NCBI RefSeq assembly: GCF_000058485.1
Contig: NC_008278.1
Location: forward strand, 862,962-926,961
Reading direction: 5' to 3'
Length of the DNA stretch: 64,000 nt
Source: Frankia alni ACN14a
Lineage (GTDB): Bacteria; Actinomycetota; Actinomycetes; Frankiales; Frankiaceae
A model generated the notes under the pieces. It did not search any database. It had not been told where the DNA came from and saw nothing but the letters and a program-made list of their open reading frames with translations. Positions 38,521 through 62,196 of the stretch are shown one piece after another. The stretch's first letter is position 1. Each line of letters opens with the position of its first letter. Position numbers and translations under genes: made by a program.

Positions 38521-39186
38521 TCATGACGCTGTCCGACGGGCGCTGCCGTACCGCACGGTCGCCGCGGTCGCGGAACCCAGGCGCAGCTGGGCGCCGTCCG
38601 GCAGGTTCGACCAGGTCGTGCCGAGCCGCCGGCCGTCGACGAAGGTGCCGTTGGCGGTCGGGTTCTCCTCTCGTCCCTGGGCGGTACCGTCCGCCGCCAC
38701 CCGGATCAGGACGTGCCGGCGCGAGACGTAGACCCGGCCGTGCAGCACCCGGCCGCTGTCGTGGGTGCCGTGCCGACCGATCACGGCGGTCTCCCCGGCC
38801 GGGATGACGACCGTGCCCCGGTCGAACCGCAGCTCGACGCCGCCGGGACCGCCACCCCCACCGGCCGCACGGCGCAGATCGGAGGCGCAGAACGGGCAGA
38901 CCAGCTCGCCGGGCCGGATCGGCGAGCGTTGGCAGGTCGGACAGGCTGCCTGCGGCCCTGGCTCGGCCGACGTCGCGACCTCGAGTCGAGTTGCCGGGGG
39001 AGCGTCGGCCGCCGGGGGGCCGCCGGATCCCGGCGAAGCGTCGGGCGGTCCGGGACTGTCCGCCGGCGGTGGGTCGTCGCGGATCCGGGACTGGTCGGTG
39101 AGAACCGTGCCGCACCCGCCGCACACCACGGCCGTCCGCGACACGGGCGACCGGCAGACCACGCAGACCCAGCCGGGGGTGCTCAC
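38521..39186 (-). CDS. Zinc-ribbon FHA-domain protein
   Basis: About 221 residues. The N-terminus has two CxxC pairs (CVVCRSP and CGGC), a Pro-rich linker, a second zinc ribbon (CPTCQRS and CPFC) and then a forkhead-associated domain with the conserved GRHG, SRRHVLI and NPTANGTFVDG motifs that bind phosphothreonine. The GTG at 39186 overlaps the radical SAM stop as GTGA, so it is the last gene of the AAA/radical SAM operon. It is the natural reader of the Thr phosphorylation made by the kinase at 47277, whose tail carries five TRxE/D motifs. Confidence 0.88.
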   Translation of the reverse strand: MSTPGWVCVVCRSPVSRTAVVCGGCGTVLTDQSRIRDDPPPADSPGPPDASPGSGGPPAADAPPATRLEVATSAEPGPQAACPTCQRSPIRPGELVCPFCASDLRRAAGGGGGPGGVELRFDRGTVVIPAGETAVIGRHGTHDSGRVLHGRVYVSRRHVLIRVAADGTAQGREENPTANGTFVDGRRLGTTWSNLPDGAQLRLGSATAATVRYGSARRTAS

Positions 39187-39938
39187 GGCCGCGGCCGCCA
39201 CGACACGTCGGCCAGCTCGACGCCGCGGCGGGCCAGCGCCTGCTCGATGCGGTTCAGGTCACCGGGGGCGGGGACGCCGATCAGCCACCAGCGTCCGTCG
39301 TCCAGCCCGACCTGTAACGGACGCGCGGCGCCGGCGCCTTCGCCGACGGCGCCGAAGCGCTCGCGGCCCAGCGGGGTGAGGATCTCCAGCCGCTGGTTGG
39401 CGGAGCCGCGCCACGCCCCGCCGGGAGCGCGCCGGGCAACATACGGGCCGGTGACGACGACGTCGCACCACTGCATCGCCGCCGCCCGGCGTGGGCTGCG
39501 GCGCAGCGCGGCGGTGGTGTAGCCGGAGTAGACCAGCACATCGACCGCGGGCAGCTGCGCCCGCAGTCCGCGCAGCAGCGCGCCGAGCGGCTCCGGCTGC
39601 TGGAACGGTTCGCCGCCGGAGATGGTCACGCCGGTCAGCCCGGGCCGCTCGCACAGCCACGCGAGCAGCTCCGCGATCGGCGTCGTGCTGCCGCCGGCGG
39701 GATCCCAGGTGTCCAGGGACATGCAGCCGGGGCAGCCGATGGTGCAGCCCTGCACCCACAGGCCGGCGCGGATGCCCGGCCCGAGCGACGTCACCGGGAA
39801 GTGCCGCCGGCTCATCCGCAGCGTCGCCCCCGACGGGCCGAGCCCCGGCTCCGCGCCGGACACTCCGGGGCCGGACGGTCCAGGGCCGGACGGTCCAGGG
39901 TCGGACGGCGCAGGGCTGGGCGGTTCAGGACTGATCAC
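39183..39938 (-). CDS. Radical SAM protein (NrdG/activase-like)
   Basis: About 251 residues. The CxxxCxxC cluster motif appears as CTIGCPGC, followed by the SAM-binding TISGGEPFQQP and DVLVYSGYT. The order and size resemble 4Fe-4S activases such as NrdG, with N- and C-terminal extras. The N-terminal 40 residues are a Pro/Gly-rich repeat. It begins inside the end of the AAA gene (14-base overlap) and overlaps the FHA gene. It probably installs or activates a modification on a partner of this locus. No glycyl-radical enzyme is present nearby. Confidence 0.85.
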   Translation of the reverse strand: MISPEPPSPAPSDPGPSGPGPSGPGVSGAEPGLGPSGATLRMSRRHFPVTSLGPGIRAGLWVQGCTIGCPGCMSLDTWDPAGGSTTPIAELLAWLCERPGLTGVTISGGEPFQQPEPLGALLRGLRAQLPAVDVLVYSGYTTAALRRSPRRAAAMQWCDVVVTGPYVARRAPGGAWRGSANQRLEILTPLGRERFGAVGEGAGAARPLQVGLDDGRWWLIGVPAPGDLNRIEQALARRGVELADVSWRPRP

Positions 39939-41997
39939 GGTGGCGCACCTTCACCAGGCCGGCACGGAGGGGGCCGCCGCCCTGGGATCCCGTCGGGCCG
40001 GCGTCCGGTTGCGGCGGAGGCCCGGACCGGCGCAGGGTCAGCGTGCGCCGGCCCGAGCTGCCGCCGAGCTCGGTGACCTCGACGACGGTGCCCCGCGGGA
40101 ACCCCTCCCGGAACAGCGCGTGGGCCAGGGGGTTGACGAACGCCGACTCCAGGAACGACCCGATGCCCCGCCCGCCATAGGCCAGCACCGTGTCCGAGGT
40201 CGCCTCCCGCACGAGCGCGGCGCGCACCGCGGCGGACGGCCGCACGTCGACGGCGTGCTGCTGGCGCACGCGCGCCAGCACCCGGGCCAGCTGTTGCTCG
40301 AAGATCCGCGCCCCGGTCGGCTCGTCGATGAAGCCGAACACGACGATGTTGTCGCCGAGGCGGTTGAGCAGTTCCGGACGTCGCAGCGTCTCGACGAAGT
40401 GCCGGCGGATCTCCGCCTCGACCCGCCGCTCCAGCTCCGCGCGGTCGGTCTGCGGGGTCAACGGCGGCCCGTCGGACGCCTGCATCCCGAGATTCGAGGT
40501 GAAGACGATGATGCTCTCGCTGAAATGGACGGTTGACCCCGTGCCGTCCGTCAGTCTGCCGTCATCGAGAACCTGGAGGAACTTGTCCAGGATGCGGGGA
40601 GCGGCCTTCTCGATCTCGTCGAACAGCAGCAGGCTGAAGGGGCTCTGGCGTACCGCGTTCGTCAGCTCGCCGCCGGCGTCGTAGCCGACGTAGCCGGGCG
40701 GCGCGCCGGTCAGCCGGTCGGCGGAGTGCTCGGCGGCGAACTCGCTCATGTCGAAGCGGATGTAGGCGTCCGCCTCGCCGAAGACGAGCTGGCTGATGGC
40801 CTTGGCGAGCTCCGTCTTGCCGACGCCGGTCGGCCCGGCGAGGAACAGCACCCCCCGCGGGCGCACGACACTACTCGCCTGCGCCCCGGACAGGCCCATC
40901 ACCGACCGGACGAGGATGTCCACCGCCCGTCCGACGGCCTGCTGCTGCCCGAGCACCGCGGCGTTGAGGGTTTCCTCGGCGTCGCGCAGCCGGCCGCGCA
41001 GCTCGTGCTGGCCCCACGGGTTCTCCCGGACACCGAGGCGGTAGCTGCGGGCCGCCGCCTCCATCGAGGACACCTCGGGGATGCCGGAGCGGCTCAGCTC
41101 GACGATCGCCGGCAGGCTGTTCAGCGGCAGTCCCTGAACGCTGTCGGCGAAGCGCCGGGCCAGCGCCGCACGCTGCTCACCGGTGAGCCCGGCCGACTCC
41201 GGTAGCAGCGGCAGCAGCGCGGTGGTGGCCGTCAGCCGGTCGTCGAGCTGCGGGACCGGCACCGCGATGCGGCGCAGCGGAACCGACGGCGACATGAACG
41301 ACGCAGGCAGCTCCTGTTCGTTGTGCACCAGCCAGATCAGCGGGTTGTACCGGGCCCGCTCGTCCGGCCAGACGAAACGCATCGCCTGGTGCGCGAGCTT
41401 CTCGGCGGCGGTGAAGAACGCCTGCTCGTTCTCCATCAGGTTCGCGGGATTCGTCACCAGCCGGCCGGCGTAGTCGATGATGAGCGCGACCGGGGTGTCG
41501 ACGATGCCGGGCGGACGGATGTCCGGCCCGTCCTGCGCCTCGGCGCCCTCGGCGCCCTCGGCGCGGTCGGGATCCGGGCCGTGGACGACGTGGCGCATCC
41601 GGTCCGCGAGGGCGGCCAGGTCGAGTTCGCGCTGCGGGGCGCGGATGCCGTACCGGGCGCGCAGCACCTCCTGCTGGGCGCGCAGCCGCTCCTCCCGCTC
41701 GGGCCGCGGCATGGCCCGTGGCAGGTGCAGGCGCAGCCCGTCCACCGGGTCGGCGACCAGGACGTGGTGGTAGCCGCTGGCGTCGAGGGTGTACCAGAGT
41801 CGGTCGAGCAGCGACAGGAACTGCATCGGCCCCCGCGGCGGTGTCCACAGATGCTGGTCCCGGACATTGCCGTGCAGGACGAACTGCGGGTGCGTGAACA
41901 CCGAGGACTGCAGGTCGCGCAGCCAGCCGGGGACCCGTGGCCCGTCGACGTCCGTCCCGGCGTTCCTCGGTTCGGCCGCCTCGGCGCGTTCGCTCAT
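39925..41997 (-). CDS. Clp-type AAA+ ATPase with degenerate N-terminal ATPase-like region
   Basis: About 690 residues. The C-terminal half is a ClpA/ClpB D2-type module: Walker A LAGPTGVGKTELAKAI, pore-type GAPPGYVGYDAGGEL, Walker B LLLFDEIEKA, sensor 1 IIVFTSNLG and arginine finger region RRPELLNRLGDNIVVF. The N-terminal half (FVLHGNVRDQHLW, ALIIDYAGRLVTNP, IWLVHNEQELPASF) looks like a second AAA domain without Walker A. ATG at 41997 with AAGG upstream. In this setting it is a candidate unfoldase or remodeller of the conjugation locus. Confidence 0.87.
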   Translation of the reverse strand: MSERAEAAEPRNAGTDVDGPRVPGWLRDLQSSVFTHPQFVLHGNVRDQHLWTPPRGPMQFLSLLDRLWYTLDASGYHHVLVADPVDGLRLHLPRAMPRPEREERLRAQQEVLRARYGIRAPQRELDLAALADRMRHVVHGPDPDRAEGAEGAEAQDGPDIRPPGIVDTPVALIIDYAGRLVTNPANLMENEQAFFTAAEKLAHQAMRFVWPDERARYNPLIWLVHNEQELPASFMSPSVPLRRIAVPVPQLDDRLTATTALLPLLPESAGLTGEQRAALARRFADSVQGLPLNSLPAIVELSRSGIPEVSSMEAAARSYRLGVRENPWGQHELRGRLRDAEETLNAAVLGQQQAVGRAVDILVRSVMGLSGAQASSVVRPRGVLFLAGPTGVGKTELAKAISQLVFGEADAYIRFDMSEFAAEHSADRLTGAPPGYVGYDAGGELTNAVRQSPFSLLLFDEIEKAAPRILDKFLQVLDDGRLTDGTGSTVHFSESIIVFTSNLGMQASDGPPLTPQTDRAELERRVEAEIRRHFVETLRRPELLNRLGDNIVVFGFIDEPTGARIFEQQLARVLARVRQQHAVDVRPSAAVRAALVREATSDTVLAYGGRGIGSFLESAFVNPLAHALFREGFPRGTVVEVTELGGSSGRRTLTLRRSGPPPQPDAGPTGSQGGGPLRAGLVKVRHRDQS

Positions 41998-51548: not shown

Positions 51549-53036
51549 TCACCAACGGTCGTCGGCGTCGAGGAGTTCTGCGTCGAACTCCATCGGTTCC
51601 GGTTCAAGCCGGCCGAGATGCTCGAAGATCCACGGCTTCTCCAGTCGTTCGGCCTGCTCGTAGGCGGAGCGGTCGGTGGCGGCGGCGACGGCGTGCTCGC
51701 CGAGCGTCCGCCAGCAGGCCGCCGCCCGGCGCCGGGCGAGCGCCGCCATGTCGGGTCGGTCGGCGTCCATCCAGCCGTCGTCGCAACGCATCCACGCCTT
51801 CGCGGCCAGCTCCCACTCCCGGCGCCGCTCGTGGGAGCCCGCCCGCCGGCCCGCCGCCAGCGCCTCGAAGCGCGCCTGGGACGTCGAGGACACCACCCGT
51901 TGCAGCGGCCGGTCGGTGACGTCGAGGCGCAGCCGGTGGGCCGGCACCGCCGGCGGCACGAGCAGCCGGGCCACGCCACCGGCAGCCGCCGTGTCCGGCT
52001 CGGGCGCGAAGGCGCCCAGGTGTCGCACCCGTGGCAGCGCGTTCGGCACGTCCTCGTGCGCGCGAGCCCAGTGGCCGGTGACGTCCGCACCGGTGACGAC
52101 GCGTACCCGCACCTCCAGGATGCCGCGCTGGCGCGACCAGGCGATCTTCGCCCCCTGGCGCCACTGCACCACGTCCGGGTCGACGAGGCGTTGGTCCAGA
52201 TCCACCAGGTAGCGTTCGACCGGGTCTGCCATGCCGAGCCTCCCGTTGCTCGCGGCCGCCGGGCCGGGCGCCCGCAAGCCGGAGGGCCCGTCGCCGTCCT
52301 CGCCGTCGCCCCGGTCGCTCGCAACCCGCGTGCTCGCGCCATGAACCTCGCCCGCGCGCTTGCGTTCGGCGTCCAGCAGGTCGGCGAGCTGGGCCAGCCG
52401 GCGGACGGCACGCGGGCGGGAGCGGTGCGGCACCCCGTCGAGGAGATCGCCCTCACCCCACGCACGGACGGACGACCTCGCCTGCGCCCCAAGTCCCGCG
52501 GAACACTCGCCCAGTCCGACCGACGCGGCGAGCAACGCGGCCTCCAGGGGCCGCCAGGGGGCGTCCACCATCACCGGCATGGACGACAGCAACAGGCACA
52601 GCCGGCCGGCCCGCCACTGCGCGGCGAGCACCGAGCTCACCGCGCAGACCACTGCGGACGGCTCGGCGCCGGCGGGCGGCCGCCGGCAGATCAGCCGGGC
52701 CGTCTGGGCGCCGAACAGCCGCCCGACCAGCCGGAGCGCACCATGGCTTGGCGCTGCGTCGGGATCCCCGCCGGGCAGCTCGACGGAGATCCACAGCAGC
52801 CTGGGCGAGGTCCCCGCGTCGGCGCTCGCGACGACATCCGGCAGGAGCCGCGCGGCCGCGAGTCCCGCGGGACCGGCCCGGCCGTCGCCGACGACGAGGT
52901 CCCAGGCGGCGCGTTCCTCGTCGAACTCCAGGGTCAGGTCCAGCCGACGCACCGGGACGTGCACCGTCTGCTTCTTGGGTTCGGCGCCGACGGCGGCCCG
53001 GCGGGGACGCAGGCGGGGGAGCAGGCGGGGGAGCAT
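51549..53036 (-). CDS. Hypothetical protein coupled to the sigma-like gene
   Basis: About 495 residues, ATG at 53036 overlapping the previous stop as ATGA. The N-terminal half (LDLTLEFDEERAAWDLVVGD, LLWISVELPGG, SVLAAQWRAGRLCLLLSSMP) looks alpha/beta; the middle is an acidic/basic linker with a coiled-coil stretch. The C-terminal half (VERYLVDLDQRLVDPDVVQW, ILEVRVRVVTGADVTGHW, SQARFEALAAGRRAGSHERR) carries helices ending in an acidic tail. No recognised catalytic motif. Coupling suggests that it acts with the sigma-like protein. Confidence 0.7.
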   Translation of the reverse strand: MLPRLLPRLRPRRAAVGAEPKKQTVHVPVRRLDLTLEFDEERAAWDLVVGDGRAGPAGLAAARLLPDVVASADAGTSPRLLWISVELPGGDPDAAPSHGALRLVGRLFGAQTARLICRRPPAGAEPSAVVCAVSSVLAAQWRAGRLCLLLSSMPVMVDAPWRPLEAALLAASVGLGECSAGLGAQARSSVRAWGEGDLLDGVPHRSRPRAVRRLAQLADLLDAERKRAGEVHGASTRVASDRGDGEDGDGPSGLRAPGPAAASNGRLGMADPVERYLVDLDQRLVDPDVVQWRQGAKIAWSRQRGILEVRVRVVTGADVTGHWARAHEDVPNALPRVRHLGAFAPEPDTAAAGGVARLLVPPAVPAHRLRLDVTDRPLQRVVSSTSQARFEALAAGRRAGSHERRREWELAAKAWMRCDDGWMDADRPDMAALARRRAAACWRTLGEHAVAAATDRSAYEQAERLEKPWIFEHLGRLEPEPMEFDAELLDADDRW

Positions 53037-53821
53037 CACGCCGCCCCCAGCACGCTCGCGTGCACCTGGTGCAGCAGATGGCGGCTGCAGTCCCGCAGCC
53101 GTTTGCCGGCCTGGCGCGCCGCGGCGCTCTGCGGGGCGGCGTCGAGGGGGAAACTGGTCGGCGCGGCCACCGCGGCGACCAGCCGCCTGGCTGTCCGGGG
53201 CGGGTACTCGTCGGCCAGGCCCGCCGCGGTGACGGTGCCGAACGCGATCGAGAACACCTGCTCGGGATGCGGGCAGCCGCCGGCGTGACGCGGGCACCGC
53301 GGCCCGGCGGCGGTGAACATCAGGCGGGTGAGCTCGTCGAGGCAGGCCGCGTCGAGCGCCGGGTCGTTCCCGCGGGCCTGGTCGGCCGGGTCGGGCACGG
53401 TTCCGCGGCCGGCCGCGTCCTCGGGCAGCTCGTCCGGGAGGACCTCCCGGTCCTCGACGTTCCACGTGCGCCGGCGGGCGCGAAACTCGTCGACGACGGC
53501 GTGGCGCAGGGCCCGCAGGCCGAAGGCGCGCAGGTTGGCCTCGTGCCGCGCCGGGCCGTTCTGGAACGTCCGCTCCAGCCGCGGGTAGAGCTCGCCGATG
53601 GCCTCTGCGGCGACCTCCCGGTCGCCGTCGGCGAGCCGCACGGCCACGCCCCAGGTGCGTCGATACCGTTCGGCCGCGTGCGGGTGCTCGCACATGCCGA
53701 GCTCACAGCAGACGATGCGCAGGTGCTCCCGTCCGTCGAGTTCGGCGGTGGGTGCGGCGCTGTCGGCCGACGCCGCGGTGGTCGCGCACGAGGCGGTTCC
53801 GGCGGTGTGATGGGTCGTCAC
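53036..53821 (-). CDS. Sigma-70-like (ECF-type) protein
   Basis: About 261 residues, GTG at 53821 with GGAGG eight bases upstream. The segment AAEAIGELYPRLERTFQN followed by FGLRALRHAVVDEFRARRRT resembles sigma region 2 of ECF factors (the helix ending with R-x-x-VVDE-x-R-x-R). TAAGLADEYPPRTARRLVAA could be a region 4 HTH. A Cys/His cluster (CCELGMCEHPH, CPRHAGGCPHPE) is an unusual insertion that could bind zinc. It lies between the JAMM protease gene and an unknown partner and could regulate the locus. Assignment is tentative. Confidence 0.5.
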   Translation of the reverse strand: MTTHHTAGTASCATTAASADSAAPTAELDGREHLRIVCCELGMCEHPHAAERYRRTWGVAVRLADGDREVAAEAIGELYPRLERTFQNGPARHEANLRAFGLRALRHAVVDEFRARRRTWNVEDREVLPDELPEDAAGRGTVPDPADQARGNDPALDAACLDELTRLMFTAAGPRCPRHAGGCPHPEQVFSIAFGTVTAAGLADEYPPRTARRLVAAVAAPTSFPLDAAPQSAAARQAGKRLRDCSRHLLHQVHASVLGAA

Positions 53822-53907: not shown

Positions 53908-55647
53908 TCAGTACAGGGAGCAGGCGTCCGACGGGGTCCCGGCCTGGTCCTCGAACGGGTGCGCGCGCGACGGGTGGCAGGCGGCGGGCGGCGGCGTGGG
54001 GGACCGGGGCGAGAACGAGTCGTCCGCGCCGTCCCCGAATCGGGAGTAGGCCCGGTAGGTGACGTAGGCGAGCAGCAGGAGGGTGAGGACGGCGGCTGCC
54101 AGCACCGTCCACTCCCAGCGCCAGCGGCGGGAGCGCGCGCCGACGAGCCGATCCGGACCGGCCGGTGCCGCGGAACCGGGCGCACCACGGTCGGCTTCGT
54201 CGGGGTAGGGCGCGACGGGCCGGGCGGACCGGGTAGGCAGGCCGAGCCGGCGTCGCCCGGCCGGTGCGTTTCGGCGGCGTAGCCGAGGCCGTCGTCGGAC
54301 ACCCCGCGGACGCCCCTGCTCGGCGGCGATCTCTGCGGAACCGTGGGCCGCGGAGCCGTGGGCCGCGGAACCATGGGTCGCGGAACCGTGGGTCGCGGGG
54401 CCGTGTGCCGCGGGGCCGGGCGTGTCCGACCTGGCCGGGCCGGATGGGTCCGCCGGGACCAGCGGGTCGAGGGATGCGGGGTGCACCCGGGCCGGGTGCG
54501 GCTCGGGCGGTTCGGCGGTGCCGTCGGGCGACGTCGGGTGACGTTGCGACCCTGCGTCGCGGACGCCCCGCGCGTGGCTGCCGCCCCCGTACGGCCGGCC
54601 GCCCCCGTACGACGGGCCGCCGCCGGGCTGCGGGCGTCGGACCTGGCCGAGGCGGACGGGTGCCCGGTCATCCGTCGACGGTCGCAGCGCGATCTGAACA
54701 TCGGGCTGGTACGGCCGGGTCGGTGCGCCGCCGCGCGGGCCGGAGGTGAACACGCCCAGCTGGCCCGCGTTCGGATCGGCCACGAGCGCGACCTGCCCGG
54801 GCAGCCCGAAGAAGCTCCCGTGCAGGAACGTGTCGTATGCGGACAGGAAGATCCCCAGCCCGGGGTGCGTGTGGTACCAGCCGACCAGGCACTGGTCGGG
54901 GCGGTCCTCCAGCCAGTGCTGCAGGTCCACGAAGGATTCGGGCGGGATCTCCAGCCGCGCGCGGTTGCCACGGGCCTGCAGCGCTGGATGCGCCTGGCGC
55001 ACCGACGTCCAGGGCCCGTCGACGTCCTCGCCGATCTGGCCGGTGAGGAAGCCGCCCACCTCGTCCGTGGTGGTGAAGGCGTGATCGCTGATCGTGACCA
55101 GCGGTCCGGCCGTCAGGTAGAGCGCGCCGCGCCCGGCCGGGAGGCTCCAGACGGGCGAACTGGTGTCGGCCGCCGGCCGGACCGGGGCCGGGGCTGCGGG
55201 GACGGCGGGACTGCGGCGCGCCTGCACCCGCACCCGCCGCCGTGCCGGATCCGGCGGTCGGTCCGCGGACGGCGGCCGGTAGGCGCGCCCGAGCAGCTCG
55301 GATGCGCCCTGCTGTGAGATCGGCCCGATGTCCCGCGCTGACCCACCACCGCGCGCGCCGCCGGTGTCGCGCGTCGTCGCGGCGCGAGGAGGCGGCTCGG
55401 CGTCGGGAGGCAGGCCGGTGAGCGCAGGCAGGTCGGTGCGAGGGGGCGGGTCGGTGCGAGGGGGCGGGTCGGTGTGAGCAGGCGGGTCGGTGCCAGGAGG
55501 CGGGTCGGCGTCGGGCGTCCACCCGTCGTCGCCCGCCGCGCCGGTGCCGAGGGGTGGGCCCGCGGGGCGCGCGGGGCCGGCCTTCTCGTCCGGCCAGGGG
55601 CCGCTGACGGTCATCTCGTCGCGTTCCGGGGGGCCAGGACGGGTCAT
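53908..55647 (-). CDS. Membrane-anchored JAMM/JAB metalloprotease (deubiquitinase-like)
   Basis: About 579 residues. A long Pro/Asp-rich N-terminus with TDPP repeats precedes a JAB domain of about 170 residues with the complete JAMM zinc motif: Glu196 in TTDEVGG, then HTHPGLGIFLSAYD (His259, His261, Ser269, Asp272). After a disordered region with HGSA repeats there is one membrane helix (WTVLAAAVLTLLLLAYVTY) near the C-terminus. The JAB domain therefore faces the cytoplasm if the N-terminus is inside. It overlaps the E2 gene as ATGA. In Ubl pathways JAMM enzymes mature the Ubl or remove it from targets. Confidence 0.92.
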   Translation of the reverse strand: MTRPGPPERDEMTVSGPWPDEKAGPARPAGPPLGTGAAGDDGWTPDADPPPGTDPPAHTDPPPRTDPPPRTDLPALTGLPPDAEPPPRAATTRDTGGARGGGSARDIGPISQQGASELLGRAYRPPSADRPPDPARRRVRVQARRSPAVPAAPAPVRPAADTSSPVWSLPAGRGALYLTAGPLVTISDHAFTTTDEVGGFLTGQIGEDVDGPWTSVRQAHPALQARGNRARLEIPPESFVDLQHWLEDRPDQCLVGWYHTHPGLGIFLSAYDTFLHGSFFGLPGQVALVADPNAGQLGVFTSGPRGGAPTRPYQPDVQIALRPSTDDRAPVRLGQVRRPQPGGGPSYGGGRPYGGGSHARGVRDAGSQRHPTSPDGTAEPPEPHPARVHPASLDPLVPADPSGPARSDTPGPAAHGPATHGSATHGSAAHGSAAHGSAEIAAEQGRPRGVRRRPRLRRRNAPAGRRRLGLPTRSARPVAPYPDEADRGAPGSAAPAGPDRLVGARSRRWRWEWTVLAAAVLTLLLLAYVTYRAYSRFGDGADDSFSPRSPTPPPAACHPSRAHPFEDQAGTPSDACSLY

Positions 55648-56294
55648 GGCTGGCTCCGGGAGATGCGGATGCGCGGGGTGGTCGGCGGGATCGGCGGCGT
55701 GGTCGCGGAGCGGACGCGGACCCGCGGCGCGGTCGTCGTCGGAGACTGGCCGGCGCTGTGGTCGGGGCGCAGCAGCGGGCGCGGATCGACGGGCCGGGAC
55801 CTGGAGAAGTAGCCGGCGCGCTCCGCCTTCAGCGCCCACTTCGCCGCCTTGTTGTCCAGCGGGTACGGCGGCACCATCTCGGCGTGGTAGTTCTTGTACT
55901 GGACCATCTCGCCGAGCATCAGCACGACCGTTTCGAGGGTCCGGCCCACGTGCCACTGGGCGATGCAGACGCGCTGGGCGCCGTGGCCCTCGATGTTGGG
56001 ATGCAGGATCGGGGTCAGCCAGCGCAGTCCCGGCGCCTGCCGCGGATACTCCCGGCCGAGTTCGATGCGCACCCGGTGGTAGTCGCCGTACACGGGGCGC
56101 CCGTCCCGCTCGGCGCCCACGATGCCGCGGCAGCGGAAGGTCACCTCCCAGATCTCCGGCGGCCGCCCGGTGCCGGCGTCCACGATCCGGGCCTCGATGA
56201 GGTCGCTGTTCTCGCTGAGCTCGAGCACCTTGCGGGCGTCTGCCGCGAGACGCCGGTCGCGGGGGCTCAGCTGTCCCCCGGCGGTCAGCTCCAC
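55644..56294 (-). CDS. E2 ubiquitin-conjugating enzyme-like protein
   Basis: About 216 residues. A UBC fold is visible: EIWEVTFRCRGIVGAE, then HRVRIELGREYPRQAPGLRW, the HPN motif at 98-100 (TPILHPNIEG) and the catalytic Cys110 in RVCIAQWHVG, followed by helix TLETVVLMLGEMVQY and a PLDNKAAKWA segment like the E2 C-terminal helix. A basic, Pro-rich tail of about 55 residues is extra. GTG at 56294 with GGAG upstream. Presence of both HPN and Cys predicts an active thioester-forming E2. It lies between the RING-like gene and the JAMM gene, which it overlaps. Confidence 0.92.
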   Translation of the reverse strand: MELTAGGQLSPRDRRLAADARKVLELSENSDLIEARIVDAGTGRPPEIWEVTFRCRGIVGAERDGRPVYGDYHRVRIELGREYPRQAPGLRWLTPILHPNIEGHGAQRVCIAQWHVGRTLETVVLMLGEMVQYKNYHAEMVPPYPLDNKAAKWALKAERAGYFSRSRPVDPRPLLRPDHSAGQSPTTTAPRVRVRSATTPPIPPTTPRIRISRSQP

Positions 56295-56364
56295 TGTCTG
56301 CTCCGTTCGATCAGTCCGTGCTGTTGCGTCGATGTGGTGACCGCCGACCGCGCCCGGCCGCTGG

Positions 56365-56919
56365 TCAGCGGATCTCCGCCCCGCAGTGCGGCACCGCGCA
56401 CTCGCGGGCGTACTGCCCGCAGGCGCGGTGATGGGTGTGTCCCGCGGCGCACCGGACGTAGGCCTCGCCGGACGTGATCGGGTCGGCGCAGACCGGACAG
56501 CCCGGCGTGCCGTGCTGCACCTGGATGTGCGTGCCGGTGCCGCCGGCGGCGCTGCTGCTGGCGGTGGGTGTGGTGCTGACGTTGGGGGTGGTGCTGGCGG
56601 TGTTCGGCCGGGGCGGCCGGGTGCCGGGCGGGGAGGCCGGGTCGATGATCCGGATCCGGCTGCCCGGGCGGGACCCCGCCCGCCGCCCCGTCGGTCGTTC
56701 GCGCCGTGCCGGCGGCGGTTCGGGCCGTCCCGGTGGTGGCAGGGGCCGTCCCGGTGGTGGTGTGGGCCGTGCCGGTGGTGGTGCGTACGGGGCAGGTGGC
56801 GGAACGCGGCCGCCCGGCCGCTGCGCGCCGCGTCCCGCCCGGGAGCGCTGGTAGCCGAAGACGGAGATGCCCACCAGGACCGTCAGGATGGCGATGACGA
56901 CGGCGGCGGTGGCGTCCAT
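56365..56919 (-). CDS. Membrane RING-finger-like protein (E3 candidate)
   Basis: About 184 residues: an N-terminal membrane helix (AAVVIAILTVLVGISVFGY), about 115 residues of Pro/Arg/Ser-rich linker and a C-terminal zinc module with Cys141, Cys144, Cys157, His161, His163/164, Cys167, Cys174 and Cys179 (CPVCADPITSGEAYVRC, HTHHRAC, CAVPHC). The spacing C-x2-C ... C-x3-H ... H-x2-C ... C-x4-C is RING/treble-clef like. The gene lies between E1 and E2 and overlaps the E1 stop as TGATG. It is the best candidate for an E3 or for an anchor that brings E2 to the membrane. Confidence 0.85.
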   Translation of the reverse strand: MDATAAVVIAILTVLVGISVFGYQRSRAGRGAQRPGGRVPPPAPYAPPPARPTPPPGRPLPPPGRPEPPPARRERPTGRRAGSRPGSRIRIIDPASPPGTRPPRPNTASTTPNVSTTPTASSSAAGGTGTHIQVQHGTPGCPVCADPITSGEAYVRCAAGHTHHRACGQYARECAVPHCGAEIR

Positions 56920-58115
56920 CAGGGGTGGCTGTCCCTGTCGGTACCGGTGGGCACCGCCTCGGCACGGTCACCGGCGAGCTCCAGCCACGCCGAGCCGGCG
57001 GGCCCGCGGACCTCGACGACATCCAGGGGCGGGATGCCGACGGCGGCGAGCGACAGGCCGGCGTCCTCGGCGCCGAGCCGGTGGCGGAACACCGGGCGGC
57101 GTTCGGCGCCGCAGTCCGGGCAGGTCGCCGTCGAGTGCGGGACCAGCCCGCGGGCCCGCCGGACCGGGCTCGTCCGTCCGCAGCCGGCACAGTCGAACTC
57201 CCACACGCTGTCCCAGCGCAGCTCCACCGTGGCGGGCTCGCCGACCGTCGGGGCGGCGGCGGCGAGCAGATCGCCGACCGTCGCCGTGCGCGCCGACAGT
57301 GCGGTGTCGAGCACCGGTTCGAAGCGGGTGTGGGCCTCGCAGGCGGGGTTCTCCGGTCGACCGCTGACCATGAGGTCCGGGGCCTCCAGGTTCACCAGCA
57401 GCGATCGGCCGCCGACCACCGGGCGGCCGTGGAGCAGGTCCATGGCCAGGTGCACCTGGGCGGCGGCGACGATGGACGCCGCTGTCGGCGAGGTGGCCAC
57501 CCGGCCGCGCACCGCCGCGTCCAACGCCAGCTGACGGCAGGAGGCCACGTCGTCCAGGGCACGCCAGTCCTGGTCGGTGAAAGTGCACTCGTAGCAGGGG
57601 CCGGCGCCCGGCAGGAACGCCATGGCGTGACCGTGCGGACCCTGGGTGGCGCCCTCGACCCAGGGCACCCCGAGGGCGCGCGCGGTGCGGTTGAGCCACC
57701 AGCGCACCCGGCGGCTGTCCAGCCCGGCGAGGATGACGTCCTGCCCGCGCAGGTGGCCGAGCCCCGTCTCGTGCACGACGTCGGCGTGCAGGGCGTCCAC
57801 CCGCAGCGCGGGATTGAGATCGGCGAGGGTGTCGGCGGCGGCGGTCACCTTCGGTTGGCCCTCGTGCCGCGGCCGGAACAGCACCGAGCGACTCAGGTTG
57901 GACCGCTCGACCGTGTCCCGGTCGATGATGGTCACCTGCCGGAAGTCCAGCAGCGCCAGGTTCTTGAGGATCTCGTTCCCGAGCGCCCCGACGCCGACCA
58001 CGGCGACGCGGGCGAGGTGCACCGTCGACCGGTCCCACCACCCGTCCAGCCAGGCGAGCCGGGCGTTGCGGTCGCGGGGGTCGGGGATCCGGCGGCGCGG
58101 CTGGGCCAGCGTCAT
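56919..58115 (-). CDS. E1-like ThiF/UBA adenylating enzyme
   Basis: 398 residues. The ThiF fold has the nucleotide loop GVGALGNEIL (Gly41, 43, 46), the acidic residue of IIDRDTVERSNLSRS, Lys89 in RHEGQPKV, and a CYEC pair (174, 177) with a following Cys193 in ASCRQL as candidate catalytic Cys. C-terminal to this is a zinc ribbon (CAGC at 309-312 and CPDC at 332-335) and a short beta-rich end that could contact E2. It starts within the Ubl stop (ATGA). It should adenylate the Ubl C-terminus and pass it to the E2. Confidence 0.93.
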   Translation of the reverse strand: MTLAQPRRRIPDPRDRNARLAWLDGWWDRSTVHLARVAVVGVGALGNEILKNLALLDFRQVTIIDRDTVERSNLSRSVLFRPRHEGQPKVTAAADTLADLNPALRVDALHADVVHETGLGHLRGQDVILAGLDSRRVRWWLNRTARALGVPWVEGATQGPHGHAMAFLPGAGPCYECTFTDQDWRALDDVASCRQLALDAAVRGRVATSPTAASIVAAAQVHLAMDLLHGRPVVGGRSLLVNLEAPDLMVSGRPENPACEAHTRFEPVLDTALSARTATVGDLLAAAAPTVGEPATVELRWDSVWEFDCAGCGRTSPVRRARGLVPHSTATCPDCGAERRPVFRHRLGAEDAGLSLAAVGIPPLDVVEVRGPAGSAWLELAGDRAEAVPTGTDRDSHP

Positions 58116-58387
58116 GCCCGCGCACCGGCCAGCGCGAACGGGGCGATCAGCAGCGGGCTGCCCTGCGGAACCCCCGCGCTGGCCAGCGTGTCCGTGCCGG
58201 TGAGCTCCCGGCCCAGCGACTTGGCGTGAATCCGGTAGACCACCGCGGAACCGTCGCTGCCCGTCGTCGGCAGACCCAGCTCGGTCACGAACTCGGGGAT
58301 GAGCTCGCCGATGGGCACGTCGTCGGGCATTTCCACATCGGTGCGCGCGCCGGACGGCTGGATGAGCGTCATCGGGACGTCGGCCAT
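58112..58387 (-). CDS. Ubiquitin-like protein (YukD-like beta-grasp)
   Basis: 91 residues. The sequence MTLIQPSGARTDVEMPDDVP, then IGELIPEFVTELGLP, the VVYRIHAKSLGRELTGTDTL segment and GVPQGSPLLIAPF follows the beta-grasp order of YukD-like Ubls: beta hairpin, central helix, then YRL..LG..L....TL...G...G..L.L.P. The ATG at 58387 has AAGGG upstream. The protein ends ALAGARA with no Gly-Gly, so conjugation by the usual route would need processing or an unusual C-terminus. Directly upstream of E1 with stop-start overlap. Confidence 0.85.
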   Translation of the reverse strand: MADVPMTLIQPSGARTDVEMPDDVPIGELIPEFVTELGLPTTGSDGSAVVYRIHAKSLGRELTGTDTLASAGVPQGSPLLIAPFALAGARA

Positions 58388-58493: not shown

Positions 58494-59852
58494 TCAGCCG
58501 GTCCAGCGCAGGCCGTACCCGCGCCCCTGGCGCAGGTCGCGAAACAGCATGCGGACCTCGACGGCCCGGTGCGGCGCCAGCCGCGGCTGGCGGGGCGGAT
58601 AGTCGTCGACGACCCGTGGCGGCACCCCGTCCAGCACGAAGACCTCGACGCCGGCCGCGACCTGCCGCCGGGAGAACCGCACCCGGATCTGGAACTCGGC
58701 CAGCCGGGACAGCGGCACGCACATGTAGTGCGGTGCCATCGGAGCGCCGTCCACGAGGCGCAGGACGATGTCGAGGTCGTGGCGCTCGCCGGCCTGCAGC
58801 GGGCGGGGCAGGGCGACCTGCAGCCGGTAGTAGCTGGGGCTCGGCTGGTCCCAGCTGAGCAGGGTGCCGCCGTAGAGAACCTCGGCGCCGAGCTCCCGGC
58901 CGCGCCCGCGGTGGTCGTCGCCGGGCGGGACGCTGAGCTCCAGCGTCACCGTCTCGACGCCGTCGGCCGTGGCGACGATGGTGCGCCGTTCGGTCACCTC
59001 GGGCAGATCGCGGTCGAGCAGCACCAGGGCGGACAGCCGCTCGGTGTACCAGGAGGCGTCGGCGGCGAAGGGCGGGATTTCTTCTCGGTTGTCGAAGGGC
59101 GTGCCGGTGTCGAAGGGCGCGCGGGCGGGCGGGATCGCGTCGGGGGCGGAGGTGAAGGTGGCGGGTGCGCGGACCGCCGCCTCGGCGATCAACACCAGTG
59201 CCTCGTCGGCCCGCCGGCGCACGGTGCGCCGGTCGCAGCGCCACTCATGTCCGAGTCGGTCCAGCCGCTCGCCGAGAAAGCGGTCCTGCGCCTCGCGATG
59301 CACCCCGAAGAAGACCTTCGCGGCCTCGGCGAGGTCGACCGGCAGAAGGGGGAGGCGCTGGCGCAGCCAGCGGATCACCATGGCCCGATCGACCCCCGAG
59401 CCGTTCGGGCCGGCCCCGTTGTTCGGGTTGGCCGCGGACCGGGATGACCCGTTCGGGCTGGGGTTCGTGCTGAGGCTGGGAGGCTGCGTGGAGCCGAGGC
59501 CCTCGTCGCGGCGGATCACCAGCGTGAGCATCGGGCCGATCCGGCCGTCCAGGTTGACCGCGTTCAGCCCCCGGCCCCGACCCAGCCGGCGCAGTTCCGC
59601 CAGCAGCGCGTCCTGGGTGAGCTCCCCCTGCCCGTCCGGGCCAGGTCTCTGCCCGTCCGGGCCAGGTCTCTGCCCGTCCGGGCCAGGTCTCTGCCCGTCC
59701 GGGCCAGGTCTCTGCCCGTCCGGGCCAGGGCCCGGTCCGCTCGGGCCGGCCCGCGACCCGTCCTTGCCGGACGTTCCGCGCCCTGCGGAGCCGTCAGTCG
59801 GCACGCTGCCTCCTCCACCGTCCTGCCGCGGCTGTCGTCGCGATCCGGACAT
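58494..59852 (-). CDS. Hypothetical protein at the head of the Ubl operon
   Basis: About 452 residues, ATG at 59852. N-terminus of tandem GPDGQRP repeats; then a helical part (VDLAEAAKVFFGVHREAQDR, FLGERLDRLGHEWRCDRRTV, RRADEALVLIAEAAVRAP) with an HTH-like look; then a beta-rich C-terminal half (ERLSALVLLDRDLPEVTERR, YRLQVALPRPLQAGERHDLD, EFQIRVRFSRRQVAAGVEVF). It might be a sensor or target-binding protein. It lies 106 bases upstream of the Ubl gene in the same direction. Family unknown. Confidence 0.7.
   Translation of the reverse strand: MSGSRRQPRQDGGGGSVPTDGSAGRGTSGKDGSRAGPSGPGPGPDGQRPGPDGQRPGPDGQRPGPDGQRPGPDGQGELTQDALLAELRRLGRGRGLNAVNLDGRIGPMLTLVIRRDEGLGSTQPPSLSTNPSPNGSSRSAANPNNGAGPNGSGVDRAMVIRWLRQRLPLLPVDLAEAAKVFFGVHREAQDRFLGERLDRLGHEWRCDRRTVRRRADEALVLIAEAAVRAPATFTSAPDAIPPARAPFDTGTPFDNREEIPPFAADASWYTERLSALVLLDRDLPEVTERRTIVATADGVETVTLELSVPPGDDHRGRGRELGAEVLYGGTLLSWDQPSPSYYRLQVALPRPLQAGERHDLDIVLRLVDGAPMAPHYMCVPLSRLAEFQIRVRFSRRQVAAGVEVFVLDGVPPRVVDDYPPRQPRLAPHRAVEVRMLFRDLRQGRGYGLRWTG
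59630..59730. repeat. 21-nt coding tandem repeat (about 4.8 copies)
   Basis: Exact 21-nt units encode PGPDGQR-type heptapeptides in the N-terminus of the gene at 58494. In-frame slippage would only change tail length. Confidence 0.95.
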
Positions 59853-60589: not shown

Positions 60590-61489
60590 ATGAGTGGCTC
60601 GGGGGTGGATCCGCCGGAACCGTCGGATCCATTGCTGCGCGTACTGGCCAGGTACTGGGACGACGTGCTGGCGCTCGCCGACCCCGAACAGCGCGCGAAG
60701 CTGCAGGGCCTCGTCGACGGCACGCTGGAGCCCGACCCGATCGACGCCCGTGCCGCGCTGGCCGAGGAGCTGCTGGACCTGCTCCCGCCGGGCCATGAGG
60801 TGGTCGACGTCCTGCTCGCCGGCTCCATGCTGGCCGGGAGCTCCGAGAGGTCCGTCCGTGACCTGTGGGAATCCGGCCTCCGACTGCTGCGGGCCAGTGA
60901 CCCCGCCGCTGGCGACAAAGCCGGCGGTCCGGCCGGCGACGCGGCCGGTGGCGGTCCGGCCGGCGACGCGGCCAGTGGTGGTCCGGCCGGCGACACAACC
61001 GGGGGAACTGGTGACACCGCCGGTTCTCCCGGTGGAGCGTCCGTCGGCGGCGGCCCGCGGCCGGTGGACGCTCCGGCGCCGGCGGACGAACGGCCGGCGG
61101 ACGAACGGCCGCTGGACGAGCGACCGGCAGAGGAGCGGCCGCTGGACGAGTTCGACCGGCTGGTGCGGTCCAGATTGCTGGCGATGCCGTCGCTGGCCCC
61201 GGAGGAGCTGCGGGGCTGGGGCGGCGACCCGGACGACACCCACCTGATCCGACTACGCGACCCGCGCAGAGGAGACCAGTTGCCCGCCTTCCAGTTCACT
61301 CCGGCCGGCCGGCCCTGGCCGATCGTGCGGCAGGTGAACGCGCGCCTCGGCGCCGCGGCCGACCCGTGGGGGGTGACCTGCTGGTGGGTCGACCCGCACG
61401 CCCGGCTCGACACCTCGCCGGCCGCGCTGCTGGGCCAGGGGCAGGACGCCCTGCTGCTGCGTGCCGCCGCGGCCCTGGCGGAGGACTGA
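60590..61489 (+). CDS. Antitoxin-like protein with Xre/MbcA/ParS toxin-binding domain
   Basis: About 299 residues. N-terminal helical region (PLLRVLARYWDDVLALADPE, ALAEELLDLLPPGHEVVDVL), a long low-complexity middle (GGPAGDA repeats and DERPxDERP repeats), then a C-terminal domain (LPAFQFTPAGRPWPIVRQVN, GVTCWWVDPHARLDTSPAAL, LLGQGQDALLLRAA) that matches the toxin-binding domain of RES-Xre antitoxins. No HTH is evident. TGA overlaps the RES gene ATG as TGATG. It is much longer than usual antitoxins (about 150 residues). Confidence 0.75.
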   Translation: MSGSGVDPPEPSDPLLRVLARYWDDVLALADPEQRAKLQGLVDGTLEPDPIDARAALAEELLDLLPPGHEVVDVLLAGSMLAGSSERSVRDLWESGLRLLRASDPAAGDKAGGPAGDAAGGGPAGDAASGGPAGDTTGGTGDTAGSPGGASVGGGPRPVDAPAPADERPADERPLDERPAEERPLDEFDRLVRSRLLAMPSLAPEELRGWGGDPDDTHLIRLRDPRRGDQLPAFQFTPAGRPWPIVRQVNARLGAAADPWGVTCWWVDPHARLDTSPAALLGQGQDALLLRAAAALAED

Positions 61490-62196
61490 TGCCCACCGGC
61501 GTGCCGCCCAAGGGCGACCGGGCCGCCCCGCGGTTCCACGAGGTTCCCCCGGGGACGCTGCTGTGGCGGGTCACCGCTCCCGCGAAACCGGCCACCCCGG
61601 AGGCCGAGCAGCCGCTGTTCCGCGCGCCCGCCCGCGAGGTGGAGTCCCATGGTGGGCGGTGGGGCGGCCGCTTCGACGCGACCCCGGACTGCCCCTATCC
61701 GTTCTGCTACGCCGCCTTCGACGATCTGACCGCGCTGTGCGAGGTGCTGCTGCGCGACATCCCGTTCGGGGCGGAGGAACGCTACCTTCCCCACGCCGTG
61801 GCGGCCGGGCGGCGGCTGGTGCTGCTGGAGACGCTGCGTCCACTGTGGCTGGTCAGCCTGCTGGCCGCCGCCGACCTCGCCGCGGCCCGGCAGGACACCT
61901 GGCTGGTCCACACCGACGACGTCAACTATCCGATCACCCGGCTGTGGGCGCACTGGCTGCGCGACGGTGACGGACCGGCCGGCCAGGGGCCGCCCGCGGG
62001 GTTGGTGTGGCCGTCGAAACGACAGCCGACGGGCCGGGCGGTGCTGCTGTTCGGCGACCGGTGTGGCGACGCGGTGCGCTATTCGCCGCTGGGATCACTC
62101 CGGCTCGACCAGCCGCCCGGCCTGGACTGGCTGAACCGTCGCCTGGCACTCGTGCGGACCCGGATCGGACCACCCTGGCCCGGCCCGTCCGTCTGA
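61489..62196 (+). CDS. RES-domain toxin (NAD-degrading family)
   Basis: About 235 residues. RES motif elements occur in order: Arg in TLLWRVTAPA, the GGRWGGRFDATPDCPYPFCY segment, Glu in DLTALCEVLLRDIPFG, and Ser in WPSKRQPTGRAVLLFG. Proteins of this family deplete NAD and form type II modules with Xre/ParS-type partners, as here. Length matches the family. Pairing with a coupled antitoxin-like gene supports the call. Confidence 0.8.
   Translation: MPTGVPPKGDRAAPRFHEVPPGTLLWRVTAPAKPATPEAEQPLFRAPAREVESHGGRWGGRFDATPDCPYPFCYAAFDDLTALCEVLLRDIPFGAEERYLPHAVAAGRRLVLLETLRPLWLVSLLAAADLAAARQDTWLVHTDDVNYPITRLWAHWLRDGDGPAGQGPPAGLVWPSKRQPTGRAVLLFGDRCGDAVRYSPLGSLRLDQPPGLDWLNRRLALVRTRIGPPWPGPSV

Follow-up and report, generated by a model that had tools for sequence, protein, structure and literature searches.

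A predicted YukD-type ubiquitin-like conjugation cassette in Frankia alni and its relatives in Chloroflexi and Armatimonadetes

Can a YukD-type ubiquitin-like protein (Ubl) serve as a covalent tag? Proteins of this type are known mainly as secretion components that are not conjugated, and the question is raised by a compact five-gene cassette of the soil bacterium Frankia alni ACN14a, which lies within a stretch of 64,000 nucleotides (NC_008278.1, positions 862,962 to 926,961, hereafter the window) of a genome consisting of a single contig of 7,497,934 bases. Five consecutive minus-strand genes, running from 58387 to 53908 of the window, encode in this order a Ubl, an E1, a RING-like protein, an E2 and a JAMM metalloprotease. 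All five reading frames are uninterrupted, and neighbouring genes overlap at three of the four junctions (ATGA between Ubl and E1, TGATG between E1 and the RING-like gene, ATGA between E2 and JAMM), the sole non-overlapping junction being a gap of 70 bases between the RING-like gene and E2. The leftward run of genes and its stop-start overlaps, first described in an initial annotation made from the sequence alone, were verified at the level of coordinates and junctions. Four of the five products score above the curated Pfam cut-offs (YukD, ThiF, UQ_con and JAB), and the RING-like product scores below. We consider it likely that the cassette is a self-contained YukD-type Ubl conjugation system, probably derived from a Chloroflexi-like source, for which a cycle of trimming, charging, attachment and removal can be proposed.

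The first line of evidence is the company that the E2 keeps elsewhere. An E2 scan with six search patterns of one genome per species yielded 18 related loci (L014-L031), comprising 16 from Chloroflexi metagenome-assembled genomes (Chloroflexi, Anaerolineae, Ardenticatenia and similar) and two from Armatimonadetes. These loci were drawn by their E2 alone, and a Ubl and a JAMM were present in 18/18 and an E1 in 17/18; the locus without an E1 (L026) starts approximately 580 bases before its E2. A RING-type Cys/His array was found in 15 of the 18, the three loci without it (L024, L025 and L027) being cut off no more than about 2.2 kb past the E2; the window's own RING-like protein falls outside that exact expression. 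The co-occurrence of these parts around the E2 exceeds chance.

The C-terminal end of the Ubl provides the second line. The window protein is a stand-alone YukD-like Ubl with one YukD match, above the cut-off, in its 91 residues. Ala87 and Gly88 are invariant in 18/18 rows of alignment A2, drawn from the 24 Ubls of this type (the window's, 18 free and five fused) with the free Ubls of L020, L021 and L022 and the fused Ubls of L015, L016 and L017 omitted. More broadly, Ala-Gly stands at the same place in 28/28 homologous Ubls, of which 18 stop there, nine continue into an E2 and one carries five extra residues. Among the 18 free Ubls of L014-L031, 17 stop at TAG (Thr-Ala-Gly), and that of L018 reads TAG followed by QGRRA. 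Five Chloroflexi loci hold a second Ubl copy that is joined in frame with the E2 by way of ITAG, and in a divergent Frankiaceae type one Ubl (L038) stops at ATAG while four others run from ATAG or ARAG directly into an E2. The window Ubl has no Gly-Gly, and its Gly88 is followed by ARA, two features on which the initial annotation was silent. Trimming is implied if the conserved glycine is used; read most simply, Gly88 would serve as the functional end once ARA has been cut off. The same-operon JAMM is the obvious candidate and would most likely perform this trimming, because the JAMM of Caldiarchaeum is reported to remove a 9-residue extension from pro-ubiquitin and also to cleave an N-terminal ubiquitin fusion, ubiquitin-GFP (PMC5654768). 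The Ubl part of a modelled Ubl-E2 fusion from L014 shows the order strand-strand-helix-strand-helix-strand; in a PDB search with the Ubl profile, the best rows were summed tiny matches to polyubiquitin, and the single-domain matches were weak (6fj7, 0.0041; EccD1, 0.11).

Subsequently, we examined the E1, which has one ThiF match in 398 residues. Cys193 is invariant in 17/17 rows of one alignment and in 14/14 rows of another, A3, which omits L016, L017, L030 and L031 as well as L026, the locus without an E1. Three of these 14 E1s (L021, L022 and L023) lack seven other cysteines as a group (C174, C177, C259, C309, C312, C332 and C335) and keep Cys193. Since it stays where the other seven vanish, Cys193 is not grouped with those presumed metal ligands; the joint loss is as expected for metal ligands, and the retention as expected for a catalytic residue. 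Cys309, 312, 332 and 335 lie inside a ubiquitin-fold domain (UFD)-like region and may form a zinc ribbon (Zn_ribbon_8, 0.0074, below the cut-off). The AlphaFold2 model of the protein has a mean predicted local distance difference test (pLDDT) value of 84.1 and a predicted template modelling (pTM) score of 0.83. Its top Foldseek match is the NEDD8 E1 chain 2nvu_B (1.2e-20, 429 columns, root-mean-square deviation 11.1), and VIA-align gave nearly equal Z values for UBA3 (1tt5_D, Z 28.9, 230 residues, 2.1 Å), ThiF (Z 28.9), MoeB (Z 28.8) and a SUMO E1. The match to the SUMO E1-E2-SUMO complex (9dqb_B, Z 28.5, 301 residues, 3.6 Å) covers model residues 21 to 383 and extends through the C-terminal domain. 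The model aligned to UFD-bearing E1s (9dqb_B, 4ii3_A, 8sea_A and others) over about 300 residues ending at 380-383, the alignment ranges being given as first and last residues only, which places a UFD-like domain at its C terminus. In the matched eukaryotic E1s, the UFD is the domain that recruits the E2. As a separate observation, the E1 of L014 (7169-8854) has a GntR-type DNA-binding domain at its N terminus (Pfam 2.4e-18), an unusual E1 fusion; longer E1 frames occur in L015, L016, L017 and L031 too, where the GntR assignment is by length and likeness.

The E2 retains HPN98-100 and Cys110 in 20/20 rows of alignment A1, which omits L020 as near-identical to L019. Of the six patterns behind the locus search, one includes HPN and none includes Cys110. 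The window E2 matches UQ_con above the cut-off, PDB profile matches of the family to eukaryotic E2s begin at 9.7e-14, and the E2 part of the L014 fusion models as a UBC fold (best Z 13.2 over 134 residues). Fold prediction, which had been set beforehand as a test of the annotation, returned ThiF for the E1 model and UBC for the E2 of this close homologue, with the Ubl assigned to YukD by profile. Furthermore, because the N-terminus of the window E2 (ELTAGGQLSPRDRRL) aligns with the fusion junction of its homologues (DITAGSVTIGESPRMRRL), the protein may have arisen from a Ubl-E2 fusion, five residues being too few for certainty. The L014 fusion model was also considered as evidence of docking of the E2 tail on the Ubl and was set aside, the tail having a pLDDT below 50.

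The remaining two proteins carry features of membrane anchoring. The RING-like protein consists of an N-terminal transmembrane (TM)-like helix (residues 1-24, by hydropathy), a Pro-rich linker and a C-terminal Cys/His array (residues 141-179). The array proposed in the initial annotation is present, but the Prok-RING_1 score of the window copy is below the Pfam cut-off. Three of the four RING homologues scanned lie above it (2.7e-10, 1.2e-8 and 2.3e-10), and the fourth, from L014 in the subgroup nearest the window, lies below (9.4e-6; 25.9 vs 29.1 bits). The JAMM metal motif, E..HxHP-x6-S-x2-D, was found in 18/18 related loci and in the window, where it comprises Glu196, HTHP, Ser and Asp between long low-complexity flanks, with a Pfam JAB match above the cut-off. 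Conservation across the aligned relatives bears out the residues that had been singled out by inspection, namely E1 Cys193, E2 HPN with Cys110 and this metal motif. The JAMM carries one TM-like stretch near its C-terminal end (513-531, by hydropathy). Because both the RING-like protein and the JAMM carry TM-like anchors and homologous operons hold FHA and vWA proteins, the sequences suggest that tagging takes place at the membrane.

Several of the related loci hold further genes. The Armatimonadetes operon at L029:10010-18630 contains two E2s, two JAMMs and three RING proteins, together with a trypsin-like membrane protease and an FHA-like membrane protein (both recognized by eye), and L030 is similar. 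A dynamin-like GTPase gene lies a few kilobases upstream of the E1 in L018 (3647-6409), L019 (3804-6470) and L023 (128-2797), identified by Pfam Dynamin_N (5.3e-13) for L018 and by likeness for L019 and L023.

How the cassette came to be in Frankia was approached through its distribution. Within Actinomycetota, an E2 profile matched 1/396 sampled genomes, the window's own; as the best eight candidates per genome were scored, distant E2s may be missed in this sample. With the single E2 protein as query, 3/393 genomes of the class responded: the window's, one with a divergent type (G029) and G320. The last is a distant E2 (L012, G320:C293; 36%, E 3.9e-10) from another family of the class, and the 3.4 kb inspected around it held the E2 alone. 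Among 35 genomes of the order, the E2 profile was strong in the window's genome, and four genomes held a divergent version; among 13 of the genus, a strong score occurred in the window's genome only, G004 giving two weak matches. Among the matches listed, those between the surrounding 17.5 kb and 12 other genus genomes were short, the best being 360 bases, inside the E1 of G004. Although the G+C content of the window copy, 0.76, fits its surroundings, acquisition most simply explains this copy, because the set, complete or truncated by contig ends, is found in 18 Chloroflexi and Armatimonadetes loci but in one of 396 sampled Actinomycetota genomes and the DNA matches listed within the genus are short; the cassette was probably acquired from a Chloroflexi-like source. 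The E1 tree groups the window protein with L029 (0.92), on a branch that is long and adjoins the L014 type. Identities to the L014 type are 44-50% for E2 and 48-51% for Ubl, vs 30-41% and 32-40% to the rest; these favour the L014 type as the nearest relative, a point that the tree does not settle.

A second, divergent Ubl system occurs in Frankiaceae (L038, L039, L041, L042 and L043, with an E1 in L040); it comprises an E1 together with, at four of the loci, a large protein in which Ubl and E2 are joined through ATAG or ARAG. Carriage of the set as phage or plasmid cargo was also considered and set aside: an E2 search found no match in 50,697 phage records, two E2 pattern scans of viral contigs gave none, and 72,556 plasmid records gave one weak match. 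That match is a distant E2 (27%) on a Crinalium epipsammum plasmid predicted to be mobilizable (NC_019754.1, 40575-41012).

Gene content and order, conservation of the active sites and of the Ubl end, the predicted folds of the E1 and of a homologous E2, and the patchy distribution are established. Comparison of sequences and models supports a conjugation-deconjugation cycle, whose functioning we infer. In the cycle that we propose, the JAMM would remove ARA from the pro-Ubl and expose Gly88. The E1 would then adenylate Gly88 and carry the Ubl on Cys193, as its invariant residues and fold suggest, and its C-terminal UFD-like domain would, judging from the model, pass the Ubl to Cys110 of the E2. 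The membrane-anchored RING-like protein would deliver charged E2 to proteins on the cytoplasmic side of the membrane, to which the Ubl would be attached, and the membrane-anchored JAMM would take it off again.

Several observations weigh against such a cycle. Classical YukD has been reported as not conjugated (PMC1779556), and the window Ubl has no Gly-Gly, ends in LAG-ARA-stop and carries Leu at residue 86, where the other 17 rows of A2 have Thr. The window RING-like protein reaches only 0.0028 against Prok-RING_1 and reads CAAGH where many homologues have C-x2-C, the same Cys being absent also in second RING-type proteins of L019, L020, L022, L023 and L028. The stretch around Cys193 was modelled at low confidence (block means 62-71). 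Finally, the 18 loci are related metagenome-assembled genomes from one E2 pattern search and are not independent.

Even if the cassette conjugates its Ubl, its role could be other than that of a resident membrane modification system. An anti-phage role of the Bil kind, in which the Ubl would be put on phage proteins, seems to us unlikely. The patchy occurrence would suit it, and PADLOC models for E1-E2 (4.4e-16) and BilD (2.7e-7) match the window E1, as JAB models match the homologous JAMM of L018 (1.6e-7); these matches, however, reflect widely shared domains, in the E1 the common adenylation domain, and the window Ubl, RING-like protein, E2 and JAMM match no PADLOC model at E 0.01, nor do nine of the ten neighbouring products. 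The scarcity of the E2 in the phage, viral-contig and plasmid searches argues in the same direction, and the membrane anchors, with the FHA and vWA partners of homologous operons, are more in keeping with a role at the membrane.

It is improbable, in our view, that the copy is a decaying or altered transplant that keeps its E1, E2 and JAMM intact and whose Ubl, with its LAG-ARA end and without Thr86 or a free Gly, is no longer conjugated in this strain. Among the 24 Ubls of this type only the window's differs at Thr86, and the isolation of the copy within its genus, both in strong E2 scores and in the short matches of the surrounding DNA, is what such a history might leave behind. Decay sits poorly, however, with five open frames, three overlapping junctions and intact active-site residues in E1, E2 and JAMM, and the L018 Ubl has a similar extended tail (TAG-QGRRA). 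Very improbable is a Ubl acting as a non-conjugated structural or regulatory protein like EsaB/YukD of type VII secretion, with E1 and E2 serving another purpose: the Ubl does belong to the YukD family, whose secretion-system members are described as lacking Gly-Gly (PMC11217815) and in the case of YukD as unconjugated (PMC1779556), yet no FtsK/EssC or WXG100 model was found among 20 products scanned between 38.5 and 64 kb, and the constant company of E2 and JAMM (with E1 in 17 loci), the Ala-Gly end of all 28 Ubls and the exact Ubl-E2 fusions speak against it.

In addition to the enzymatic parts, similar short peptides recur in the tails and linkers of unrelated proteins within one operon. 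In the L018 type and the Armatimonadetes loci these are hydrophobic-acidic (LKITPEDL, IEITDDDI, LIITSDDLL, DDLGINLL and DDLEIELK), and the L014 type and the window have basic ones (RVRLK, RVRL, KIKLK, KIKL, RIRI and RVRV). We take them to resemble SUMO-interacting motifs (SIMs), short hydrophobic motifs with a charged flank that bind the beta2-alpha1 groove of a Ubl. Over 18 rows, the first Ubl helix starts with RR in the acidic-motif groups and with GE, KE, RE, KD or GD in the basic-motif group, and the net charge of the Ubl is +1 to -4 in the former vs -6 to -10 in the latter. Motifs and helix start are thus opposite in charge.

Motif counts were then set against shuffles, flanks and cross controls, which include no secretion-type YukD loci; the expressions were written post hoc, after the sequences had been seen, the loci are related and operon borders were set by distance. 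The 85 operon proteins of the L018 type held 18 matches to motif A and 11 to motif B, vs 0.44 and 0.04 in shuffles, and 60 flanking proteins held none of A and one of B. For the L014 type, 36 operon proteins held 24 basic motifs vs 5.3 in shuffles, and 51 flanking proteins held 10 vs 6.1. In L029 and L030, two A and four B fell in the flank and no A and four B in the operon, the operon window being too short there, so that part of the operon was counted as flank. Counted by family, the acidic motif occurred in 4/16 operon vs 0/57 flanking families (Fisher P 0.0017) and the basic motif in 4/9 vs 3/28 (P 0.045), one of the four basic-motif families consisting of a single protein (L014:5844-7091; by eye, probably a transporter) that is unlikely to belong to the operon; cross controls by family gave 0/9 and 0/28, and 2/16 and 3/57. 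E2 tails carry the acidic motif in ten L018-type rows of A1, yet the E2s are not among the four acidic families, presumably because the fusions cluster E2s with Ubls. The five window proteins held five basic motifs vs 0.44 in shuffles (P 0.0005): one in the RING-like protein, three in the E2 (one inside the UBC core), one in the JAMM and none in the E1 or Ubl. The other 42 window genes held nine, or 0.64 per 1000 residues vs 3.4 in the cassette. A prokaryotic counterpart of the SUMO/SIM pair, in which motifs of the operon proteins would dock non-covalently on a YukD-type Ubl, with co-evolution by charge swap, Ala-Gly maturation and some Ubl-E2 fusions, is possible, though we do not hold it probable; given the relatedness of the loci and the post hoc choice of expressions, shared motifs are offered as a hypothesis.

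The coordinates of the cassette and its features are collected in Table 1.

Table 1. Features of the five-gene cassette, in window coordinates.
Feature	Position	Strand	Basis
Ubl, YukD-type, 91 aa	58112..58387	-	Pfam YukD 1.5e-14, alignment A2
Ubl C-terminal LAG-ARA (Ala87-Gly88 plus 3 residues; the following TGA overlaps the E1 ATG)	58115..58132	-	Alignment A2
E1, ThiF-type adenylating, C-terminal UFD-like domain, 398 aa	56919..58115	-	Pfam ThiF 2.8e-46, structure model
E1 candidate catalytic Cys193	57537..57539	-	Conservation in 17/17 and 14/14 rows
E1 UFD-like domain, residues ~265-388	56952..57323	-	VIA alignment of model; Zn_ribbon_8 0.0074
RING-like protein, 184 aa	56365..56919	-	Prok-RING_1 0.0028, below cut-off; hydropathy
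Candidate basic SIM-like RIRI, linker of RING-like protein	56647..56658	-	Motif scan
E2, 216 aa, GTG start, HPN98-100, Cys110	55644..56294	-	Pfam UQ_con 8.3e-9, alignment A1
E2 N-terminal ELTAG, possible fusion relic	56277..56291	-	Alignment with homologue junction DITAG
E2 C-terminal tail, two candidate basic SIM-like motifs (RVRV, RIRI)	55662..55724	-	Motif scan
JAMM metalloprotease, 579 aa	53908..55647	-	Pfam JAB 3.8e-5, metal-site residues
Candidate basic SIM-like RVRV, upstream of JAMM domain	55225..55236	-	Motif scan

Around the cassette, a type VII secretion locus was considered and set aside, no secretion gene models being found among the 20 products scanned. A stronger YukD match lies elsewhere in the genome, in a 557-residue open frame (G000:C1:3201924) that we would guess to be EccD, and a weak third YukD-like match (L046, G000:C1:968090-968278; 23.2 bits, below the cut-off) falls in a 1607-residue frame about 47 kb from the cassette. 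The 345-residue product at 58494-59531 was tried as an upstream partner and is not counted as part of the system, because homologues occur in ten other genomes of the order, of which only G255 also has an E2 match. On the other side, the product at 51549-53039 found no match in 34 other genomes of the order. A RES-domain protein (61489-62196; 7.8e-19), with the gene at 60590-61489 immediately upstream, resembles a toxin-antitoxin pair. Further away (38521-41997), an FHA domain, a 4Fe-4S/radical SAM-like protein and a Cdc48-type AAA protein are encoded side by side; the AAA protein (39925-41997) matches PADLOC PDC-M37B (2.2e-29), the only match among the ten neighbouring products.

With the Ala-Gly end, the exact fusions of Ubl to E2 and the extended pro-form, a suggested covalent YukD pathway becomes testable at residue level. 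The recurring motifs are a concrete candidate for Ubl recognition, testable with peptides and one small protein, and the membrane anchors of the RING-like and deconjugating proteins suggest a role at the membrane, which would be unlike the phage defence of Bil and Bub. The cassette offers a concrete route to asking how ubiquitin-type tagging and recognition motifs began.

The general kind has been predicted before. Burroughs, Iyer and Aravind (2011, Mol Biosyst) reportedly predicted bacterial RING E3s together with E1, E2, JAB and Ubls, and are said to have noted the E1 UFD and suggested that YukD-like Ubls might be conjugated. Of that kind, the YukD-like Ubl, the ThiF-type E1 with a conserved Cys and a UFD, the active E2 and the JAB are all found here; its Prok-RING_1 RING with a membrane helix corresponds to a product with a TM-like helix whose domain score is below the cut-off. 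We therefore regard the window cassette as a variant of a known, predicted kind. A 2014 review refers to the 2011 work when it mentions operons of a related kind in Actinobacteria, Planctomycetes and Acidobacteria (PMC4197634). Among the matches listed in a search of titles and beginnings of abstracts, with most subscription papers outside its coverage, no experiment on a YukD-type conjugation system appeared; in the accessible parts of the literature, we found no description of the Ala-Gly end with a pro-form, of Ubl-E2 fusions of this type or of the shared motifs.

Among characterized systems, EsaB/YukD of type VII secretion shares the YukD family, but no E1, E2, RING or JAMM partner is described for it in the accessible part of its source (PMC11217815), and the window has no secretion models between 38.5 and 64 kb. 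The Caldiarchaeum subterraneum operon is reported to hold, as here, ubiquitin, E1, E2 and a small RING protein with a neighbouring Rpn11/JAMM, and its pro-ubiquitin is trimmed by the JAMM, a precedent for a JAMM that both matures and removes the tag beside a set of E1, E2 and RING genes; its ubiquitin ends in Gly-Gly plus nine residues, and no membrane anchors are mentioned in the accessible part of its source (PMC5654768), whereas here a YukD-type Ubl has a single Gly and a 3-residue extension. Bub is likewise reported as a bacterial operon of Ubl, E1, E2 and protease (PMC12687455), and the E1 model resembles the BubCD chain 9eav_A (Z 25.1 over 235 residues), a match that stands 48th of 50 VIA rows and ranks below ThiF, MoeB and eukaryotic E1s. 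Bil (BilABCD) also is reported to combine Ubl, E1, E2 and JAMM in one operon, with its Ubl processed by the JAMM (PMC11354881). The distinction from this four-gene system drawn in the initial annotation holds in architecture: BilA consists of two Ubl domains and BilD of inactive and active adenylation domains with a Cys domain (PMC11354881), whereas the window Ubl is a single domain and its E1 has one adenylation domain, and the added membrane RING-like protein sets the cassette further apart from Bil.

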